Source: Hymenobacter sp. 15J16-1T3B
GTDB taxonomy: Bacteria > Bacteroidota > Bacteroidia > Cytophagales > Hymenobacteraceae
DNA: 64,000 nucleotides
Direction of reading: 5' to 3'
Assembly (NCBI RefSeq): GCF_020711235.1
Contig: NZ_JAJFAV010000008.1
Location: forward strand, 1-64,000
Part shown: in pieces, positions 7,833 to 60,043 of the stretch
How positions within the stretch are numbered: position 1 is the stretch's first letter
How the letters are laid out: the number at the start of each line of letters is the position of its first letter
Program-made: the position numbers and the translations under genes
The notes under the pieces: generated by a model
Database searches by the model: none
Seen by the model: the letters and a program-made list of their open reading frames with translations, nothing else
What the model was told of the DNA's origin: nothing

Positions 7833-7988
7833 CGGTTTGCGAAGGAAAAATGTGGGCGGTGCGCCGGGCTGGCGCGGGCCGGAAAACTACCACCGGGAAA
7901 GCACACGCCCAGATTGCGTGGCGCGTGAGTTGATTGGAGCCGATGCGGGCGCAGTAAACCACTGCTGCCCGGTTCGTGGGGGGCGGCG

Positions 7989-8420
7989 CTAGGCGCTTGC
8001 GCCGGGAGCCGTAGCGGCCGGGGGCTCCCGCTGCAGGGCCAGGCGGCAGCAGCAGAGGGCCAGCAGCAGCGTTAGGGGCGTGAAGAGCAGCCGCTCCAGG
8101 TCGGTTTTGGCGAATACGTTGCCCAGGGTGTTGAGGAAAAACAGCGCCGTCATCAGCCACAGGGTCCCCGTGATGAGTTGCCGGCTGACGCGCACCCGCA
8201 GCCGCCCCGAGGCCACGGCCACCACGGCCAGCATCAGCAGGTTCAGGCCGATGGATACGGTTTCGAACGTCAGCATTTGGTGGTGATTTTTCAGCCGCCC
8301 GCCCCACACGCTGGCAAACGGAATGACGCCCGTTATTATCAACACGTGAAATAGCACGATGAGGCTCAGAATAATGAATATCCCGTTGGCCGCAACTCGG
8401 GCAGTCAGGAAGTGCTTCAT
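7989..8420 (-). CDS. Four-helix membrane protein, unknown function
   Basis: 143 aa with four hydrophobic segments (about 10-33, 50-72, 82-102 and 110-126) and a short Pro/Ala-rich tail. The layout (ITGVIPFASVWGGR, then NHHQMLTFE) resembles small uncharacterised membrane proteins of Bacteroidota. No catalytic motif is visible. It is on the same strand as, and 86 bases downstream of, the heme-b-like membrane protein at 8507; linkage is possible but unproven. Confidence 0.7.
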   Translation of the reverse strand: MKHFLTARVAANGIFIILSLIVLFHVLIITGVIPFASVWGGRLKNHHQMLTFETVSIGLNLLMLAVVAVASGRLRVRVSRQLITGTLWLMTALFFLNTLGNVFAKTDLERLLFTPLTLLLALCCCRLALQREPPAATAPGASA

Positions 8421-8506
8421 GGAAAGAAACGGACAGGTGCCAAAGCTGCCGGTGGGCGCGGTAGCAGCGCAAAGCTACGGGGCGGGACGCCGGGCTCGTA
8501 GCGGAA

Positions 8507-9133
8507 TTAATTGCCCAGGGCGCGCAGGTATGACGCCGGAATCGGCAGGCCTTGCAGGCGGTTGGTCATGGCCACCAGGATGAGCAGGGCCAGCAGCACG
8601 CCCGTGCCACCCACGACCACGGCCTGCCGCCGCGCGCTTTTCTCACCCCAGATGCTGCGGCCCTTCTGGTAGTGCAGGCTGGCCAGGTGCAGAAAAACCG
8701 CCGTGACAGCCAGGAAGTAATACGGGATGAAAAAGAGGTTGTAGGGGAAAGTATTGATGCCCGCTGCGGCGAAGTACAGGTTGGTATCGAGCCCAAACCA
8801 GGCCCGGCCGGTGAGCACCGCCGCGGTATGCACCAACAGAAAGAAGGCCAGATACAGGCCCGAGTACATCTGCAGCCGCTCCGCCAACGGCCGCCACGGC
8901 TCCCGGCGGCCCCGCCAGTATAGGCGCAGGCCGCTGAAAACCTGCCCCGTTACGGCCAGCAGCAGGCCGGTTTCGAGCACCGGGTGCCGGTACGCCTGGC
9001 GCAGCGCGGTCATGGTGGCCACGTGGGCCGCCACGCTCCACAGCGCCACCAGGTGATTGGCCAGGTGCACCAGAATGAAAACGGCCAGTACGAGGCCCGT
9101 CCAGTAGTGGTAGGTTTTGGTAGATAACCGCAT
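8507..9133 (-). CDS. Membrane protein resembling cytochrome b subunits
   Basis: 208 aa from ATG 9133 (MRLSTKTYHYWTGLVLAVF); an ATG 27 bases upstream is possible. Five hydrophobic helices carry spaced histidines (HYWTG, LVHLANHLVAL, LLVHTAAV, FLHLASLHYQKG). This resembles the membrane anchor of succinate dehydrogenase/fumarate reductase and other diheme cytochrome b proteins. No catalytic subunit is adjacent, so a respiratory role is only suggested. Confidence 0.65.
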   Translation of the reverse strand: MRLSTKTYHYWTGLVLAVFILVHLANHLVALWSVAAHVATMTALRQAYRHPVLETGLLLAVTGQVFSGLRLYWRGRREPWRPLAERLQMYSGLYLAFFLLVHTAAVLTGRAWFGLDTNLYFAAAGINTFPYNLFFIPYYFLAVTAVFLHLASLHYQKGRSIWGEKSARRQAVVVGGTGVLLALLILVAMTNRLQGLPIPASYLRALGN

Positions 9134-9306
9134 CGGGTCAAATGGGATTCGCCACAGCAATATTAGTTTGATGGAATATTAATCTGCTTACGCTGCTGCG
9201 CAACCCCGCGCAGCAGGACGGCCGCGGCGTCTTGTATTGGCCGATCTGCGTATGCCGGATCAACCCGAACCGGCCGCTCTACGCCCTGGCTGGCTCCTGT
9301 TTTCCC

Positions 9307-10137
9307 ATGGATACTCGCCCCCGCGCCAGCGCTGCTTCCTGGCAACAAACCGCTTACCGCGTCATTTTCGAATCGGACACCCGGGCCGGGCAGTTGTTCG
9401 ACATTGCCTTGCTGGCGGCCATCCTGCTGAGCGTGGTGGCCGTGATGCTGGAAAGCGTCACCAGTATCAATGCCCGCTACGGCCCCGCGCTGCGGGCCGT
9501 GGAGTGGATGTTCACGGGCCTTTTCCTGCTGGAATACCTGATGCGCCTGCTGGTGGTGCGCCGGCCGCTGGCGTACGCGCTGAGCTGGCTGGGCATCATC
9601 GACTTTCTGGCCATTGTGCCCACGCTGGCGGCCCTGGTGCTGGCGGGCAGCCGCTACCTGCTCGTGATTCGGACGCTGCGGCTGCTGCGGGTGTTTCGCA
9701 TCTTCAAGCTGGGACAGTTCGTCGGCGAGGGCGAGTTTATCCTGAACGCCCTGCGGGCCAGCCGCTTCAAGATTATGGTGTTTCTGAGCTCGGTCATCAC
9801 GCTGGCCGTGGTGGTAGGCACGCTGATGTACGTGGTGGAAGGCGGCCAAAACGGCTTCACCAGCATCCCAAAAAGCATCTATTGGGCCATCGTGACCATG
9901 ACGACGGTGGGCTACGGCGATATTTCCCCGACGACGGTACTGGGCCAGACGCTGGCCTCGGTGCTGATGATTCTGGGCTACGCCATTATTGCGGTGCCCA
10001 CGGGCATCGTCTCGGCCCAGATGGCGCTGCCCGCCACCGGCAAGCCCGCCTACAAACAGGCCGTGTGCCACGTCTGCCAGGCCGCCGGCCACCGCGACGA
10101 CGCCGAGTATTGCTGGCGCTGTGGGGAAAAGCTCTAG
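9307..10137 (+). CDS. Voltage-gated K+ channel with C-terminal zinc ribbon
   Basis: 276 aa from ATG 9307. Six transmembrane helices; the S4 helix carries regularly spaced arginines (RTLRLLRVFRIFK, 122-134). The pore loop has the K+ selectivity filter TVGYGD (200-205), followed by the inner helix. After the pore the tail holds two CxxC pairs (Cys254/257 and Cys269/272), a zinc-ribbon arrangement in place of the usual RCK domain. One subunit of an expected tetramer in the inner membrane. Divergent from the minus-strand membrane proteins. Confidence 0.92.
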   Translation: MDTRPRASAASWQQTAYRVIFESDTRAGQLFDIALLAAILLSVVAVMLESVTSINARYGPALRAVEWMFTGLFLLEYLMRLLVVRRPLAYALSWLGIIDFLAIVPTLAALVLAGSRYLLVIRTLRLLRVFRIFKLGQFVGEGEFILNALRASRFKIMVFLSSVITLAVVVGTLMYVVEGGQNGFTSIPKSIYWAIVTMTTVGYGDISPTTVLGQTLASVLMILGYAIIAVPTGIVSAQMALPATGKPAYKQAVCHVCQAAGHRDDAEYCWRCGEKL

Positions 10138-51899: not shown

Positions 51900-52829
51900 T
51901 TATTGCAGCAGCACGCGCTGAAGTAGCGGCGCGCCCTGAACTGGCTGTACCCGGATAAGATAGAGGCCCTTGGGCAAGGCCCGCAAATCGATCGGCTGAC
52001 CGACGGGCAGCGGCCCCTGCCAGGCCAAACGTCCCGCCAAATCGTGCACCTGCACGGTGCCGGCCAGGATGCCCGGGGGCAGCATCAACAGCCCGGTGCT
52101 CGGGTTCGGCGACACGCCCAGCGCGGCTGGCCGGGCCGCCGGCGCCGAGGCCGTGACCAACGTAGTGCAGTCCGTATATTGCGCATTAGTATACAGGTTC
52201 TGAGCGCCGGCGCTGTAGCACAGCAGCGCGCCGGTCAGCGGCGGATCGGAGCCGTCGCACCCAAAGTAGCCGGACCCGGAAACGAGCAGGAATGAGTTGA
52301 TCGGGCCCAGGCCTTCGTAGACCCGCCCCCAGCGCTGTACAACATGGCCGGAAACAGCCGGCGTGAGCGTGTAGCTGGCCCGAAACCAGCGCCGCAGCCG
52401 ACCCGCCACGAATTGTTGCCCCACGCTGTCGACGGTGACCCGGGCGCTGTACGAACACGCCGGCAGTATGCCGCCCACGACGATGGGCGTCGTCCACGAG
52501 TCGCCGGGCCCGACGCTGAAGTCGTACAGCTTCAGAAATTGGCCGCCCTCATAGATCCACACGGCGTTGGCATCGGCGGAAGTGTAGAGCGGCGGGTATG
52601 AATCCGCCGTGCTGCGGGAGTGAAACTTCAGCTGCCGCCGCAGTTTCTGACACGGCCGGCCCTGGATGGTCGTGTCGCCGACGTATTCCAGTCGCAAATC
52701 CCCGAGTCGGGGGCCCTGCACAAAAGTAAAATACGTCCAGCGCGAACCGGGCGCCCAGGCGGCGTTACGTTGGGCTTGAGCGCCCAGGCTGGCCAGCAAC
52801 AGGGGTATTACGAGTAAAAGTTGTCTCAT
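51900..52829 (-). CDS. Secreted T9SS cargo protein, unknown function (paralogue A)
   Basis: 309 aa (MRQLLLVIPLLLASLGAQAQ, signal peptide). C-terminal Por sorting domain: VSPNPSTGLLML, VHDLAGRLAWQ, PIDLRALPKGLYLIRVQ. It therefore leaves via the type IX system and may be anchored at the surface. The middle (RWTYFTFVQGP, GDSWTTPI, VTVDSVGQQFVAGRLRRWF, RVYEGLGPINSF) is shared with the next gene and is a beta-rich domain without known activity. Three cysteine pairs are likely disulfides. Confidence 0.85.
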   Translation of the reverse strand: MRQLLLVIPLLLASLGAQAQRNAAWAPGSRWTYFTFVQGPRLGDLRLEYVGDTTIQGRPCQKLRRQLKFHSRSTADSYPPLYTSADANAVWIYEGGQFLKLYDFSVGPGDSWTTPIVVGGILPACSYSARVTVDSVGQQFVAGRLRRWFRASYTLTPAVSGHVVQRWGRVYEGLGPINSFLLVSGSGYFGCDGSDPPLTGALLCYSAGAQNLYTNAQYTDCTTLVTASAPAARPAALGVSPNPSTGLLMLPPGILAGTVQVHDLAGRLAWQGPLPVGQPIDLRALPKGLYLIRVQPVQGAPLLQRVLLQ

Positions 52830-52906
52830 CGATCAAGCAGCAATAAAGGGTAAGCAAAGCCGATATCGAGCAGGCGGAGCGGTCTTGGTGCCCCACCCGG
52901 CGGCCC

Positions 52907-53830
52907 TTATTCCAGCACGATGCGGCGGCTCAACGTAGGAAAGCCGGCCTGCTGCACACTTACCAGGTAAAGCCCGCGGGGCAGTTGCTCCAGCCGCAGC
53001 CTGGCATCGGGGGTGCCCGCCAGCTGCCTAACCACTTGCCCCGCCGCGCTGAACACGCGCACGGTAGCGCGGGAGTAAGCCGCCGGCAGCTTCACCGTCA
53101 GCTCGCCCGGGCCCACCGTCGGGTACACCGCAAAGCCTTCGGAGGCCTTTGAGTTGCCGCACAGGCCGGTGGCCACGCCCTGGCAGTTGACCATCGTGCC
53201 CGTAATAATGAGTCCGGGCTGAGCGGCGGTGCTGAAACACTGGGCGAGGATCAAGCCGCCGAAATCGATGGCCTGACACGCACTGCTTACCGGCGTAAGG
53301 TAGTGCACCAGCGAGCCTACCCCCTCGTAGATGCGCGCGGAGCGGTAATAAGTCAGGGAAGGCCCAAGCTGGGCGTGCACCACAAACCAGCGCCGCAGCT
53401 GCCCGCCAATAACCTGCTGACCGACGCTGTCCACGGTCAGCTGCGTGGGGCCGCAGTGGTAGTTGCTCATCGGCGGGCCCTGGTAGGTCCACGAGTCGCC
53501 GGGCCGGGCGCTGAAGTCGTGCATCTTGTAGAACTGCCCGTTGGCGTAAATCCACACCCGGTCGGCGTCGGCCTTGGTGTACATGCGCCAGATTTGCGAC
53601 GAGTTGGTGTAGGTCGCGTGCAGCACCTGACTGCTCTGGCCACCAATCACGGTATCAGCTACGTACGCCGTGCGCATGGGTAAGAAAACGGGCGGTGAGC
53701 CCAGCCCGGCCCAGAAGGTCATGTGCTGCCACACGGCGCCCGGCGGGCACCATAGGCCCCGGCCGGTTGACTGAGCCCCGGCGGCGGCTCCCAAACAGCA
53801 CAACCAACAAACGAGTAACAGCTTTTTCAT
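52907..53830 (-). CDS. Secreted T9SS cargo protein, unknown function (paralogue B)
   Basis: 307 aa from ATG 53830 (MKKLLLVCWLCCLGAAAGAQ, signal peptide); another ATG two codons earlier is possible. Same architecture as its neighbour: FWAGLGSPP, DSWTYQGPP, LTVDSVGQQVIGGQLRRWF, RIYEGVGSLVHYL, and a C-terminal sorting domain VYPTVGPGELTVKLP, VFSAAGQVVRQL, LRLEQLPRGLYLVSVQ. A tandem duplicate, divergent in the N-terminal part. Probably exported by T9SS; function unknown. Confidence 0.85.
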   Translation of the reverse strand: MKKLLLVCWLCCLGAAAGAQSTGRGLWCPPGAVWQHMTFWAGLGSPPVFLPMRTAYVADTVIGGQSSQVLHATYTNSSQIWRMYTKADADRVWIYANGQFYKMHDFSARPGDSWTYQGPPMSNYHCGPTQLTVDSVGQQVIGGQLRRWFVVHAQLGPSLTYYRSARIYEGVGSLVHYLTPVSSACQAIDFGGLILAQCFSTAAQPGLIITGTMVNCQGVATGLCGNSKASEGFAVYPTVGPGELTVKLPAAYSRATVRVFSAAGQVVRQLAGTPDARLRLEQLPRGLYLVSVQQAGFPTLSRRIVLE

Positions 53831-53906
53831 AGGCATTCGAGCTAACGGAGTTCATACGCTCCAGCTTGCTCAAATACCATACCGCCACCGTTGAAAGCCA
53901 ATTTTC

Positions 53907-56335: not shown

Positions 56336-56518
56336 ATGTGATTGGTCTGATCATAACGACACCATTTCTGAGGGGTCACTACGGGCAAAGGTTGTAATGG
56401 CGCGTCCAATAAATCAGGCGCAAGAGGCTGGCTGCTACGGCGGCGTTTGCGTAGAGCATGGTATTACAACCAACCAAATCCGCTTGAAGTCAGGGGATTT
56501 CATACCTCATTCTGCCCC

Positions 56519-58015
56519 ATGCGCATCCTGCTCACCGGCGCCAACGGCTACATCGGCCAGCGCCTGCTGCCGCTGCTGGTCGAGGCCGGCCACGACGTGA
56601 CCTGTTTGGTGCGCGACCCGCGCCGCTTCGAGCCCCCGGCCCCGCTGCGCGAGCGGGTGCAGGTGGTGCAAGCCGACCTGCGCCAGCCCGCCAGCCTGCA
56701 GGCGCTGCCCACCGACTTCGACGTGGCCTACTACCTGGTGCACTCCATGAGCACCAACGGCCGCGACTTCGCCCGCGTGGAGCAGGAGTCGGCGCGCAAC
56801 TTCCGCCGGTTTCTCGACGGCAGCGCGGTGCGTCAGGTGATTTACCTCTCGGGCATCGTCAACGACCAGCACCTCTCGGCGCACCTTCGCTCCCGGCAGG
56901 GCGTGGAAGACGAGCTACGCCGCGCCGCCCGGGCCCGGCTCACGGTGCTGCGCGCCAGCATCATCATCGGCTCGGGCTCGGCTTCTTTCGAGATTATCCG
57001 CGACCTGGTGGAGAAGCTGCCGGTGATGGTGGGCCCGCGCTGGCTGAACTCGCGCTGCCAGCCCATCGGCGTGCGCGACGTGATGTACTACCTCACTGCG
57101 GTGCTCGACCGCCCCGATTGCCTGGGCCAGACCTTCGACATCGGCGGGCCCGACGTGCTGACCTACCGGCAGATGCTGGAAGGCTTTGCGCGGCAGCGCG
57201 GGTTTCGGCGCACCATCATCACGGTGCCGGTGCTCACGCCGCGGCTCTCGTCGTGGTGGCTGTTTTTGGTCACGCGTACCTCGTTTTCGCTGGCGCGCAG
57301 CCTGGTCGATTCGCTGCGCAACGACACGGTGGCGGCGGCCGAGCGAAGCATTGCGCGGGTGCTCCCGCACCGCTGCATGAGCTACGACGAAGCCCTGCGC
57401 CTCGCCTTTCAGCGCATTGAGCAAAACGAGGTGGTGAGCAGCTGGAAGGACGCGGCGAGCAGCGGCGTGGCCCGGCAGAACTACATGGACTACGTGCAGA
57501 TTCCGCAGCACGGCATGTTCTTCGACCGGCAGACGCTGCCCTTTACCCGTCCCGTGGCCGAGGTGCTCGACAACATCTGGCGCATCGGCGGGCAGCGCGG
57601 CTGGTACAAGGTCGACTGGCTGTGGCGGGTGCGCGGCGTGCTCGACAAGCTGGTGGGCGGCGTGGGGTTGCGCCGCGGCCGCCGCTCCCCCACCGACCTG
57701 CGCCCCGGTGACCCGCTGGACTTCTGGCGCGTGCTCGTGGCCGACCGCGCCGGGCGGCGCCTGCTGCTCTATGCCGAAATGAAGCTGCCCGGCGAGGCCT
57801 GGCTGCAGTTCCGCATCTGCGACAACGCGGATGGCTCGCATACCCTGGAGCAGCTGGCCGCGTTTCGGCCGAGCGGGCTGGCCGGGCGGCTGTACTGGTA
57901 CGCGCTGGTGCCGTTTCATTTCATCATCTTTCGGGGCATGATTGAAAACATCGGACAGTATCCCGCCAAGTCGGAAGGAAGCACCGCGGCCTCGCCTGCA
58001 CCGGAGGCCGCGTAA
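56519..58015 (+). CDS. SDR-type NAD(P)-binding protein with DUF2867 domain
   Basis: 498 aa from ATG 56519 (MRILLTGANGYIGQRLLPLLVE). GANGYIG (7-13) is the atypical-SDR motif; YLVHSMSTNGRDF and YLSGIVNDQ are typical of this family. The C-terminal half (about 320-480) is the DUF2867 domain, with KVDWLWRVRGVLDKLVGGVGLRRGR, PGDPLDFWRV and PGEAWLQFRI. The pair is a common bacterial fusion of unknown substrate, possibly binding a hydrophobic ligand in the DUF2867 part. Monocistronic as far as seen. Confidence 0.88.
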   Translation: MRILLTGANGYIGQRLLPLLVEAGHDVTCLVRDPRRFEPPAPLRERVQVVQADLRQPASLQALPTDFDVAYYLVHSMSTNGRDFARVEQESARNFRRFLDGSAVRQVIYLSGIVNDQHLSAHLRSRQGVEDELRRAARARLTVLRASIIIGSGSASFEIIRDLVEKLPVMVGPRWLNSRCQPIGVRDVMYYLTAVLDRPDCLGQTFDIGGPDVLTYRQMLEGFARQRGFRRTIITVPVLTPRLSSWWLFLVTRTSFSLARSLVDSLRNDTVAAAERSIARVLPHRCMSYDEALRLAFQRIEQNEVVSSWKDAASSGVARQNYMDYVQIPQHGMFFDRQTLPFTRPVAEVLDNIWRIGGQRGWYKVDWLWRVRGVLDKLVGGVGLRRGRRSPTDLRPGDPLDFWRVLVADRAGRRLLLYAEMKLPGEAWLQFRICDNADGSHTLEQLAAFRPSGLAGRLYWYALVPFHFIIFRGMIENIGQYPAKSEGSTAASPAPEAA

Positions 58016-58180: not shown

Positions 58181-60043
58181 ATGCCGCACCTTTCCTCGCT
58201 TCTCCTTCCTTCCCCCGTCGGCCACCAGTACTACACCACGTTTTACGTGCTGGCCTTTCTGCTCAACCAGGCCCTGTTGCTCTGGGTGGGCTACCGGCGC
58301 GGCTACCCGCTGCGCTCCTGGCTGCTGCTGACCACCGGCGTCACACTGGCGTTTATCGTGGGCACCAAGCTCATTGCCGCGCCGGGCACCGACTGGGCCG
58401 CGCTGTGGCAGCATGGGCAGTGGCCGGCCGGCACGGCGCGCTCGGTGCTGGGCGGGGCCGTCGGCGCGGCGGTGGCAGGGCTGGTGCTGCGGCGCTGGCT
58501 GGGCTACAGCTGGCACGCGCTGGACGCCTTTTGCCTGCCCACGGCAGCGGCCTACGCCGTGCAATGCGTCGGCTGCCTGCTCACCGGCTGCTGCTTCGGT
58601 CACGTGGCCGAGTGGGGCGTGAGCTACGCGCCCGGTACTCTTCCATTTCTGGTACAAGTGCAGCGCGGCCTGATTCCGGCCACGGCGGCTCACTCGCTGC
58701 CGGTGCTGCCCACGCAGGCGGTGGCGGGGTTGCTGGTACTGGGCGTAGGCGGGCTGCTGTGGCACCTGCGCCACCGGCCCTGGCCGGGCGGCAGCTGGCG
58801 CCTGCTGCAGGTGGCGCTGCTGCTGGCCGGCCGTTTTCTAATCGAGTTCTGGCGCGACCCGGCCGGCGAGCAGGTGGGCGCTGGCCTGACGGCGGTGGGC
58901 GGCATAGCCCTGAAGCAAGTGCAATGGGCACTGCTACCGCTGCTGCTGCTGGCGGGTTGGGGGTGGTGGCGGCGCACCCGGCCGCGGGCCGCAGCCCCGG
59001 CGCCCGAGGCAGTGCCTGCGCAGCAATCGGTGCGCATTCTGCTGGGCGTGGCGGTTATGCTCGGCCTTACGGCCCTGCTGGGCCCGGCCGCCTTCACCTT
59101 GCCCGAGGTGCTAGTGATAAAATCCGGCCTGACGGTGGTGCTCCTCGCTGAAGCCGTGGCCCTGGTGCGCCGCCGCGCCGAAGCCGGACCGCACCGCCTG
59201 AGCGTGCCGCTGGGCCTGGCGTCGGTGGTGCTGCTCTTTACCAACCAAGCTCCCGCCCCGGTCGATTCGGCGGCGGGCCGCCACTACCTCACGCTGAGCC
59301 TGGGCAGCAGCGCGGGCGGCTACGACGAAGACCGCACGGTGGTGCCCCCGTCGGGCTGCTCGGGCTCGGGCGGCCCCACGCTGCGCAACGCCTATTACCA
59401 CCGCTACGCCGCGCACGGCGGGAGCGTGGCGTACACGGTAGATAACCCGCGCCGCGACTTTGCCGGCGCCGGCGTGGGCGTGTGGCTTGGCCCCGAGCAC
59501 CAGGGCGTGCGGGCCCTCACGCCCAGCGGGCCGTTCCTAACAGGCTCCCCAGACAGCACTACGACGCGGCGGCTGTTTTCCGTCAATCCGTACATCGAAT
59601 TCCACGAAACGAGCCCCAAGGGTCTGTTCTACATGGATTACCGTCTCGGGCTGCACATCGGCCGTTTGGCGTATCCGCACCGCAACAAGTCATTTGAGCT
59701 GCGCCCTGCGTACGTATTTCCCGACATGCTGCTGCGGGCCGGCAAGGCCGGGGGCTTTTTTGGGCAGATGGATACCGGCTACGGCCCCGCGGCGGTGGGC
59801 AATTTTTCGGCCCGCCTAGGCGTGGGCACGGGGTTGCGCTCGGCGCGCAGCAACTACGTCATGGCCGGCATCGGCGGGGCCCGCAACTACCCGCACGGGG
59901 CAATGGGGTTTGTCAGCGGGCGCCTGCGGCTCGGCGCCACCGGCTTGGTGCTGGAGCCGTATGCGGCCACCAACTTCGGCCGCTTCTACCAAGTGAGCGG
60001 GCAGCTGTTTTACAACCTGCCGCTGGACCGGCGCAAGCCCTAG
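58181..60043 (+). CDS. Lgt-like membrane protein fused to a beta-rich C-terminal half
   Basis: 620 aa from ATG 58181. Residues 1-260 form about seven helices related to prolipoprotein diacylglyceryl transferase: GCLLTGCCFG (131-140) in place of the GRxGNFxN motif, HSLPVLPTQ (171-179), and GRFLIEFWRDP (217-227), the Arg/Glu region of Lgt. The canonical Arg and Asn are replaced by Cys-rich sequence, so activity as Lgt is doubtful. Two or three more helices (to about 390) lead to about 230 residues with strand-like repeats (VNPYIEFHETS, YMDYRLGLHIGRLAY, RLGVGTGLRSARSNYVMAGIGG), like an outer-membrane or secreted beta domain. Confidence 0.8.
   Translation: MPHLSSLLLPSPVGHQYYTTFYVLAFLLNQALLLWVGYRRGYPLRSWLLLTTGVTLAFIVGTKLIAAPGTDWAALWQHGQWPAGTARSVLGGAVGAAVAGLVLRRWLGYSWHALDAFCLPTAAAYAVQCVGCLLTGCCFGHVAEWGVSYAPGTLPFLVQVQRGLIPATAAHSLPVLPTQAVAGLLVLGVGGLLWHLRHRPWPGGSWRLLQVALLLAGRFLIEFWRDPAGEQVGAGLTAVGGIALKQVQWALLPLLLLAGWGWWRRTRPRAAAPAPEAVPAQQSVRILLGVAVMLGLTALLGPAAFTLPEVLVIKSGLTVVLLAEAVALVRRRAEAGPHRLSVPLGLASVVLLFTNQAPAPVDSAAGRHYLTLSLGSSAGGYDEDRTVVPPSGCSGSGGPTLRNAYYHRYAAHGGSVAYTVDNPRRDFAGAGVGVWLGPEHQGVRALTPSGPFLTGSPDSTTTRRLFSVNPYIEFHETSPKGLFYMDYRLGLHIGRLAYPHRNKSFELRPAYVFPDMLLRAGKAGGFFGQMDTGYGPAAVGNFSARLGVGTGLRSARSNYVMAGIGGARNYPHGAMGFVSGRLRLGATGLVLEPYAATNFGRFYQVSGQLFYNLPLDRRKP

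Follow-up and report, generated by a model that had tools for sequence, protein, structure and literature searches.

How can a polytopic inner-membrane protein and an outer-membrane-type β-barrel be made as one chain, a combination that conflicts with the usual sorting logic? The question is raised by a gene in the window, the whole 64,000-nucleotide stretch of DNA that was analysed. The gene (58181..60043, + strand) is a single open frame of 620 residues plus a stop codon, has full-length relatives, and encodes an Lgt-like domain, three extra helices and a predicted 12-stranded barrel. An in-frame GTG lies 22 codons upstream of position 58181; close relatives align from the MPHLS start.

One reading frame for two membrane folds

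Residues 9-270 (58205..58990, +) form the predicted Lgt-fold inner-membrane domain. In Pfam, residues 16-262 hit LGT at 40.3 bits (cut-off 24.9), and the predicted model of the N half superimposes on E. coli Lgt (PDB ID: 5azb) with a Z score of 17.4 and an rmsd of 3.8 over 249 aligned residues. The NCBIfam Lgt equivalog model gives 29.3 bits, below its cut-off of 334, and in Pfam the second half of the 620-residue protein is without any family match. A PDB sequence search of the fusion protein yielded a ferritin match that we judged to be due to chance, and a search of a plasmid collection yielded no match to the fusion protein.

The preliminary description had proposed that a β-rich half of outer-membrane or secreted type follows extra helices, and structure prediction of the full chain agrees with the outer-membrane type. 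The full-length AlphaFold2 model (22 sequences; mean pLDDT 82, pTM 0.66) contains, in order, a seven-helix core with the Lgt fold, three extra helices (residues 283-304, 307-332 and 337-354; 59027..59242, +), a low-confidence linker at residues 358-364 and the strands. The best 50 Foldseek rows for this model are all barrel-containing proteins, and Lgt is found only in re-alignment. When residues 356-620 are predicted alone (25 sequences; pLDDT 88.1, pTM 0.83), DSSP assigns to the model a barrel of 12 strands, an even number, at residues 367-615 (59279..60025, +). The predicted barrel matches the translocators NalP (PDB ID: 1uyn; Z 14.1, rmsd 3.8, 191 aligned) and BrkA (PDB ID: 3qq2; Z 14.1, rmsd 3.8, 190 aligned), and also LpxR (PDB ID: 3fid; Z 10.4, rmsd 3.8, 187 aligned). 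Likeness of fold to autotransporter barrels and LpxR does not establish a function; from the models we infer that the second half would sit in the outer membrane.

The protein is matched in 54 of 150 family genomes and in four of six genera. Two of these genomes (G004 and G069) match by the barrel only, so the fusion itself is found in 52 of the 150. Splitting of the gene in all relatives, named in the preliminary description as the sign of a local fusion or assembly error, is not what we find: splits were seen in G028, one of the 52 family fusions, which is interrupted by an in-frame stop, and in L118, a fusion from another collection that carries a frame break. Among the 395 genomes of the phylum set, 33 match, the window's own genome, G011 and G378 over nearly the full length and the remainder over parts of the N half. 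The nearest named relative, at 68% identity, is from Hymenobacter gummosus, and the named relatives as a whole come from Hymenobacter species and from metagenome-assembled genomes labelled Hymenobacteraceae, Cyclobacteriaceae, Bacteroidales, Flavobacteriales, Cryomorphaceae and Bacteroidetes.

A quick tree was built from 71 N halves (15 fused, 53 stand-alone and three canonical rows). In it the 15 fused rows, drawn from several Bacteroidota groups, make up one side of a branch with an SH-aLRT value of 99, a result bounded by the taxon labels of the metagenome-assembled genomes, by the quick method and by row thinning, which left out 20 of the 57 stand-alone loci L125-L181 and 13 of the 27 Bacteroidota stand-alone loci. 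A fusion or assembly error is ruled out by the 52 family genomes, the named relatives and the supported fused branch. A conserved Lgt fold and outer-membrane-type barrel thus share one frame and, in the sampled tree, one supported fusion branch. The earlier idea of an Lgt-fold membrane protein with its own linked β-rich partner holds, and this covalent pairing is conserved and probably old.

Several individual loci deserve mention. The broken fusions at L055 5854-7689 (in-frame stop) and L118 7983-9886 (frame break) are each read as two frames, and in L055 the extra helices remain with the barrel frame. Tandem fusion copies are present at L038 6262-11127, L044 6526-10393 and L121 8004-11783, with a stand-alone barrel between the two fusions of L038. 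A barrel HMM detected no barrel in L123 or L124. Residues 187-368 of the L123 protein (7917-9785) give a sub-threshold Pfam YfhO match (E 4.5e-4; 19.1 of 28.5 bits) that covers the last portion of the Lgt part together with the extra helices.

No neighbouring gene is common to all lineages in the 63 stretches fetched (some from the same genome, four without the fusion), and a conserved operon was rejected on this ground. An SDR-DUF2867-like gene in 29 of these stretches and a topoisomerase-like gene in 38, both named by eye, are read as genus synteny. In the window, the fusion is immediately preceded, on its own strand, by a gene for a NAD-binding protein with a C-terminal DUF2867 domain (56447-58015). 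Further upstream, at 51900-53836 on the minus strand, lie genes for two neighbouring 309-residue proteins that look alike by eye, one with a sub-threshold match to a type IX sorting tail.

Residues kept and replaced in the Lgt-like half

Alignment with the canonical Lgt of the same genome and with stand-alone Lgts places Cys129 (58565..58567, +) where E. coli Lgt has its essential Arg143 and Leu90 (58448..58450, +) where it has the essential His103; Cys132, Cys137 and Cys138 correspond to Asn146, Glu151 and Leu152. As had been described, PTQ (residues 177-179) and GRFLIEFWRDP (217-227) are kept, the latter containing RFLIEFWR (Arg218-Arg225; 58832..58855, +), the conserved R239/E243/R246 stretch of Lgt. 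Throughout this section the fused proteins are the 54 rows of an alignment from which the barrel-only loci and the split fusion of G028 are excluded. Arg is found at the Arg239 place in 50 of the 54 (R218 in the window) and at the Arg246 place in all of them (R225). The Arg143 place is occupied by Cys in 36, Arg in nine, Gly in eight and Ser in one, and the His103 place, changed in every row, by Leu in 46, Phe in four, Val in two, and Ile and Pro in one each. The nine Arg143-keeping rows consist of an eight-row clade of two other genera and G378, and from this distribution it seems that Arg143 was kept at first and then lost in the clade that includes the window.

The variant signature GCLLTGCCFG (residues 131-140; 58571..58600, +) had been taken to replace the Arg/Asn segment of Lgt. 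The motif is present, with Cys132, Cys137 and Cys138 in all 54 fused proteins, and the arginine is lost; as a special feature, however, the CC motif was rejected, because stand-alone GCxxxGCCxG Lgts exist and keep Arg143. We fetched 57 such stand-alone loci (L125-L181) with the pattern GCxL[TA]GCC[FWY]G, so that their GCC is present by construction; Arg143 is kept in all 57 and a GRxGC precedes the GCC in 48. Replacement of Asn and Glu by Cys is common to stand-alone Lgts, and a 2026 paper, in the text available, prints Lgt variants with N146 changed to C, E151 to C or D, and His103 to Tyr, Trp or Phe (PMC13251419). Leu90 of the window falls outside these printed His103 variants. The unusual changes in the fused proteins are those at Arg143 and His103.

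Three observations from the wider set of Lgt-like genes stand apart from this comparison. The window's genome has a third, partial LGT match (L003 1501-1716, on G000:C8) with GRTGCLLAGLEDGTYG in the signature's place. In two Myxococcales loci (L146 6444-8531 and L164 6279-8534), the Lgt carries about 390-440 extra N-terminal residues with no Pfam match, which may be a start-codon artefact. In proteobacterial loci (L128 7060-10336, L125 and L129), GCC-type Lgt-like genes lie between a small gene whose start is lipobox-like by eye and an ABC-transporter ATPase gene, the latter accompanied by a probable permease, also by eye.

The losses at Arg143 and His103 suggest a dead Lgt, kept only as an anchor, chaperone or delivery aid for a chain that is still cut or otherwise released and whose loop cysteine serves the barrel. 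In E. coli Lgt the R143A, R143E and R143K variants are inactive and fail complementation, as do all H103 mutants tried, according to the available text of PMC4728403, and the equivalent residues are changed in 45 and 54 of the 54 fused proteins, respectively. A canonical lgt, sought elsewhere in the window's genome, is present on G000:C42 (235.6 bits) and fits this account as well. The N half is, however, better conserved than the barrel, with dN/dS of 0.17 as against 0.53-0.67 in three pairings of the window with near relatives, and the invariance of Cys132, Cys137, Cys138 and R225 would be needless for a mere anchor. We regard a dead Lgt as a serious but somewhat unlikely explanation.

An ordinary second Lgt that lipidates lipoproteins and carries an irrelevant tail would account for the fold, and the GCC signature is common to Lgts that are the sole LGT match of their genome: a GCC gene is the only such match in three genomes, two from Blautia and one from Vicinamibacterales (G542:C4:14492-15202 in the L181 gene, G553:C10:535283-535993 in L158 and G545:C22:109635-110381 in L161; completeness not given). 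The fusion itself is the only LGT match of a Flavobacteriales metagenome-assembled genome (G550:C60:1765-2502), again of completeness not given. The equivalog score, a small fraction of its cut-off, the loss of Arg143 in the window's clade and the maintenance of the tail across the fused clade nevertheless make this account highly improbable.

Exchange of the barrel as a cassette

The two halves of the fused gene have different histories in several pairs of relatives. For N half, extra helices and barrel, respectively, identity is 88%, 80% and 25% between L015 and L031, as against 74% (N half) and 83% (barrel) between L031 and L023. L009 and L012 give 93%, 90% and 41% for the same three parts. 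At the DNA level this last pair is the clearest, with borders at the Gln356 codon (59246..59248, +, in the window) and the stop codon: identity is mostly 0.73-0.92 up to the first, 0.33-0.67 within the barrel and 0.72-0.95 past the second. Between L015 and L031 identity drops near the Gln356 codon with no recovery downstream, and between L031 and L023 it rises there, while between L020 and L039 the drop starts at the beginning of the extra helices and identity recovers past the stop codon. A shift near the Gln356 codon is thus seen in three pairs and a recovery near the stop codon in two.

Tree comparisons give the same picture. In AU tests, the N-half data reject barrel types 0, 2, 3 and 6 as clades (p 9.3e-6, 2.7e-3, 8.3e-51 and 2.3e-50, respectively), these being four types hand-picked among those defined on the barrel data. 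Conversely, the barrel data reject the N-half pairs L015+L031 (p 5.8e-76) and L009+L012 (p 1.6e-4), p-values that are post hoc since the pairs were chosen after the identity table was made. When the 11 barrel types with at least two rows (50 of the 54 rows) are mapped onto the N-half tree, 14 changes are needed where the minimum is 10, which means at least four extra barrel switches and no rampant shuffling. These alignments and trees show that the barrel half was swapped as a cassette between related bacteria while the inner-membrane half stayed.

The exchange is demonstrated among relatives, and the window's own barrel lies outside that demonstration. The window and its two nearest kin share one barrel type, with 51% identity in the barrel as against 90-91% in the N half and dS of 0.69-0.86 as against 0.35. 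Adjacent stand-alone barrels were considered as donors in the swaps; those sampled do not support the idea, their best identity to a fused barrel being 44%. The swapping of barrels next to an inner-membrane half that stays the same may reflect selection, by phages or other contacts at the cell surface for example, on the part that is exposed there.

The junction, the loop cysteine and known systems

The mean number of Lys and Arg residues in the 54 rows is 2.56 before the first extra helix, 0.09 between the first and second and 2.07 between the second and third, a charge pattern that predicts a periplasmic position for the barrel. After the last helix comes Gln356, a glutamine in all 54 fused proteins, and from it to the first strand the linker measures 8-17 residues in every one of them. 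Given the general width of the periplasm, a stretch of this length is too short to cross it, and too short for an uncut chain to occupy both membranes. Gln356 is also the candidate +1 residue of an internal signal-peptidase I site, albeit one with a weak score. Signal-peptidase I products of Bacteroidetes begin mostly with Gln, at a predicted share of 71% as a mean across species, in the available text of PMC5837995.

A cleavage-site score was built from 107 signal peptides found in the same loci and selected by rules that favoured Ala at -1 as well as Gln at +1, which makes it partly circular. Among post-helix sites, the one near Gln356 comes first in only 30 of 69 fused proteins; its median across the 69 (3.8) is lower than that of the best control (4.8), and 49 of the 69 sites reach the 5th percentile of the training set and 14 the 25th. 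In the window's protein the site scores 0.6, with five control sites above it. Position -1 to Gln356 is Ser in 39, Asn in eight (the window included), Ala in six and Phe in one of the 54, while Ala occupies -1 in 98 of the 107 training peptides. Since the score does not single out Gln356, we infer cleavage there mainly from geometry.

These weak scores are what would be expected if the chain were left uncut, with the barrel tethered to the inner membrane and active in contact zones or the periplasm. Glu309 matches Gln356 in its invariance, both lie at the predicted periplasmic side, and both may accordingly serve something other than cleavage. Against a tethered barrel stand the match of its fold to outer-membrane barrels, the shortness of the linker and the stand-alone relatives. 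The stand-alone barrels collected number 18, of which 16 came from the family search and two adjoin named fusions; all 18 start with a signal-like hydrophobic stretch followed by Ala-Gln or Gly-Gln (by eye), the N-termini of L058 and L059 being unusually long. In Pfam and NCBIfam, six stand-alone barrels gave nothing above cut-off and one weak PagL match (E 0.0054). On balance an uncut chain appears unlikely.

A separate barrel product could also arise from an internal translation start before the last helix, which would then be an N-terminal signal sequence, or from another protease. The last helix is short and preceded by positive residues, and G028 has a stop with a new start after it, leaving two frames. 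The alignment holds, by eye, no conserved-looking start codon at this place, and we consider such an origin very unlikely.

The barrel has a single reactive near-invariant residue, a cysteine in the first loop, which is predicted to face outward (Cys393 in the window; 59357..59359, +); the other near-invariant barrel residues are Gly, Leu and Phe. A Cys within residues 386-402 is found in all 54 fused proteins and in all 22 of a second, overlapping set, and it is retained across all 15 barrel types. Among the stand-alone barrels only two of 18 have it; it is absent from 16, three of which have a Cys near the C-terminus. One barrel that has it, L058, comes from a genome (G069) in which no fusion was found. 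On the barrel tree, in which two stand-alone rows (L059 and L229) had lost too much of their start in trimming, there are four changes in fusion and three in the Cys, and the two agree in two of three independent pairs and oppose in none, too few for significance. Because Lgt chemistry acts on a cysteine thiol, action in cis on the loop-1 Cys is a natural hypothesis, and the N half may handle the barrel's own cysteine.

Of the readings considered, we favour one in which the chain is cut into two products, the barrel reaches the outer membrane and its cysteine is handled in cis by the Lgt-like half; we put this at roughly one in three. The single chain would give two products for two membranes. 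Its first half would be an Lgt-fold inner-membrane module with a cysteine-rich signature, and the three extra helices would lead the chain out of that membrane into the periplasm, with the last helix acting as an internal signal sequence that is cut near Gln356. The released second half would move to the outer membrane as a predicted 12-stranded barrel with its conserved loop-1 Cys. Before release, in what is the weakest step, the Lgt-like module would handle this Cys in cis, by lipid transfer in the members that keep Arg143 and by protection or thiol exchange in those that have lost it.

A more specific version is that an Lgt-family protein has been fused to its own substrate and modifies the loop Cys in cis, the barrel being freed by an internal signal-peptidase cut and forming a swappable surface cassette that is bound to keep the Cys; this we hold to be rather unlikely. 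If true, it would mean a lipid- or thiol-modified barrel served by a self-dedicated enzyme. Since its two halves defy the usual sorting logic, the protein offers a direct test of internal signal cleavage in diderm bacteria. It is also a natural case of an Lgt fold without its catalytic Arg and with other motifs kept, and so could reveal what else the fold can do.

We know of no experiment on an Lgt-barrel fusion. A literature search of open PMC papers (titles and the starts of abstracts) returned no paper on one, and the available part of PMC12636315 holds nothing on the fusion protein. Lgt itself (PF01790; E. coli 5azb) has the same fold and seven-helix core, the signature in the same place, the R239/E243/R246 stretch and PTQ; the fusion differs in the replacement of His103, and of Arg143 in the window's clade, and adds three helices and the barrel. 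The stand-alone GCxxxGCCxG Lgts of Myxococcota, Acidobacteriota, Bacillota and other groups have Cys at the N146, E151 and L152 places like the fusion but keep Arg143 throughout, with no barrel seen; 17 of 62 such loci have a neighbour from one protein cluster, of which two members (by L138 and L178) match signal peptidase II. The 12-stranded barrels of the translocators NalP, BrkA and EspP and of LpxR resemble that of the fusion in fold by structure comparison; the fusion's barrel is without a Pfam or NCBIfam match.

The Bradyrhizobium FbcH cytochrome b/c1 polyprotein is likewise one chain that becomes two products by a cut at an internal signal sequence, but both of its products stay at the inner membrane and the proteins are unrelated. 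Lipocone domains of the YfiM type have been found fused to outer-membrane barrels and are proposed to act in the outer membrane (PMC12419801, available text). They resemble the fusion in joining a lipid-linked domain to an outer-membrane barrel, and differ from it in that the enzyme part of the fusion has a polytopic inner-membrane fold.
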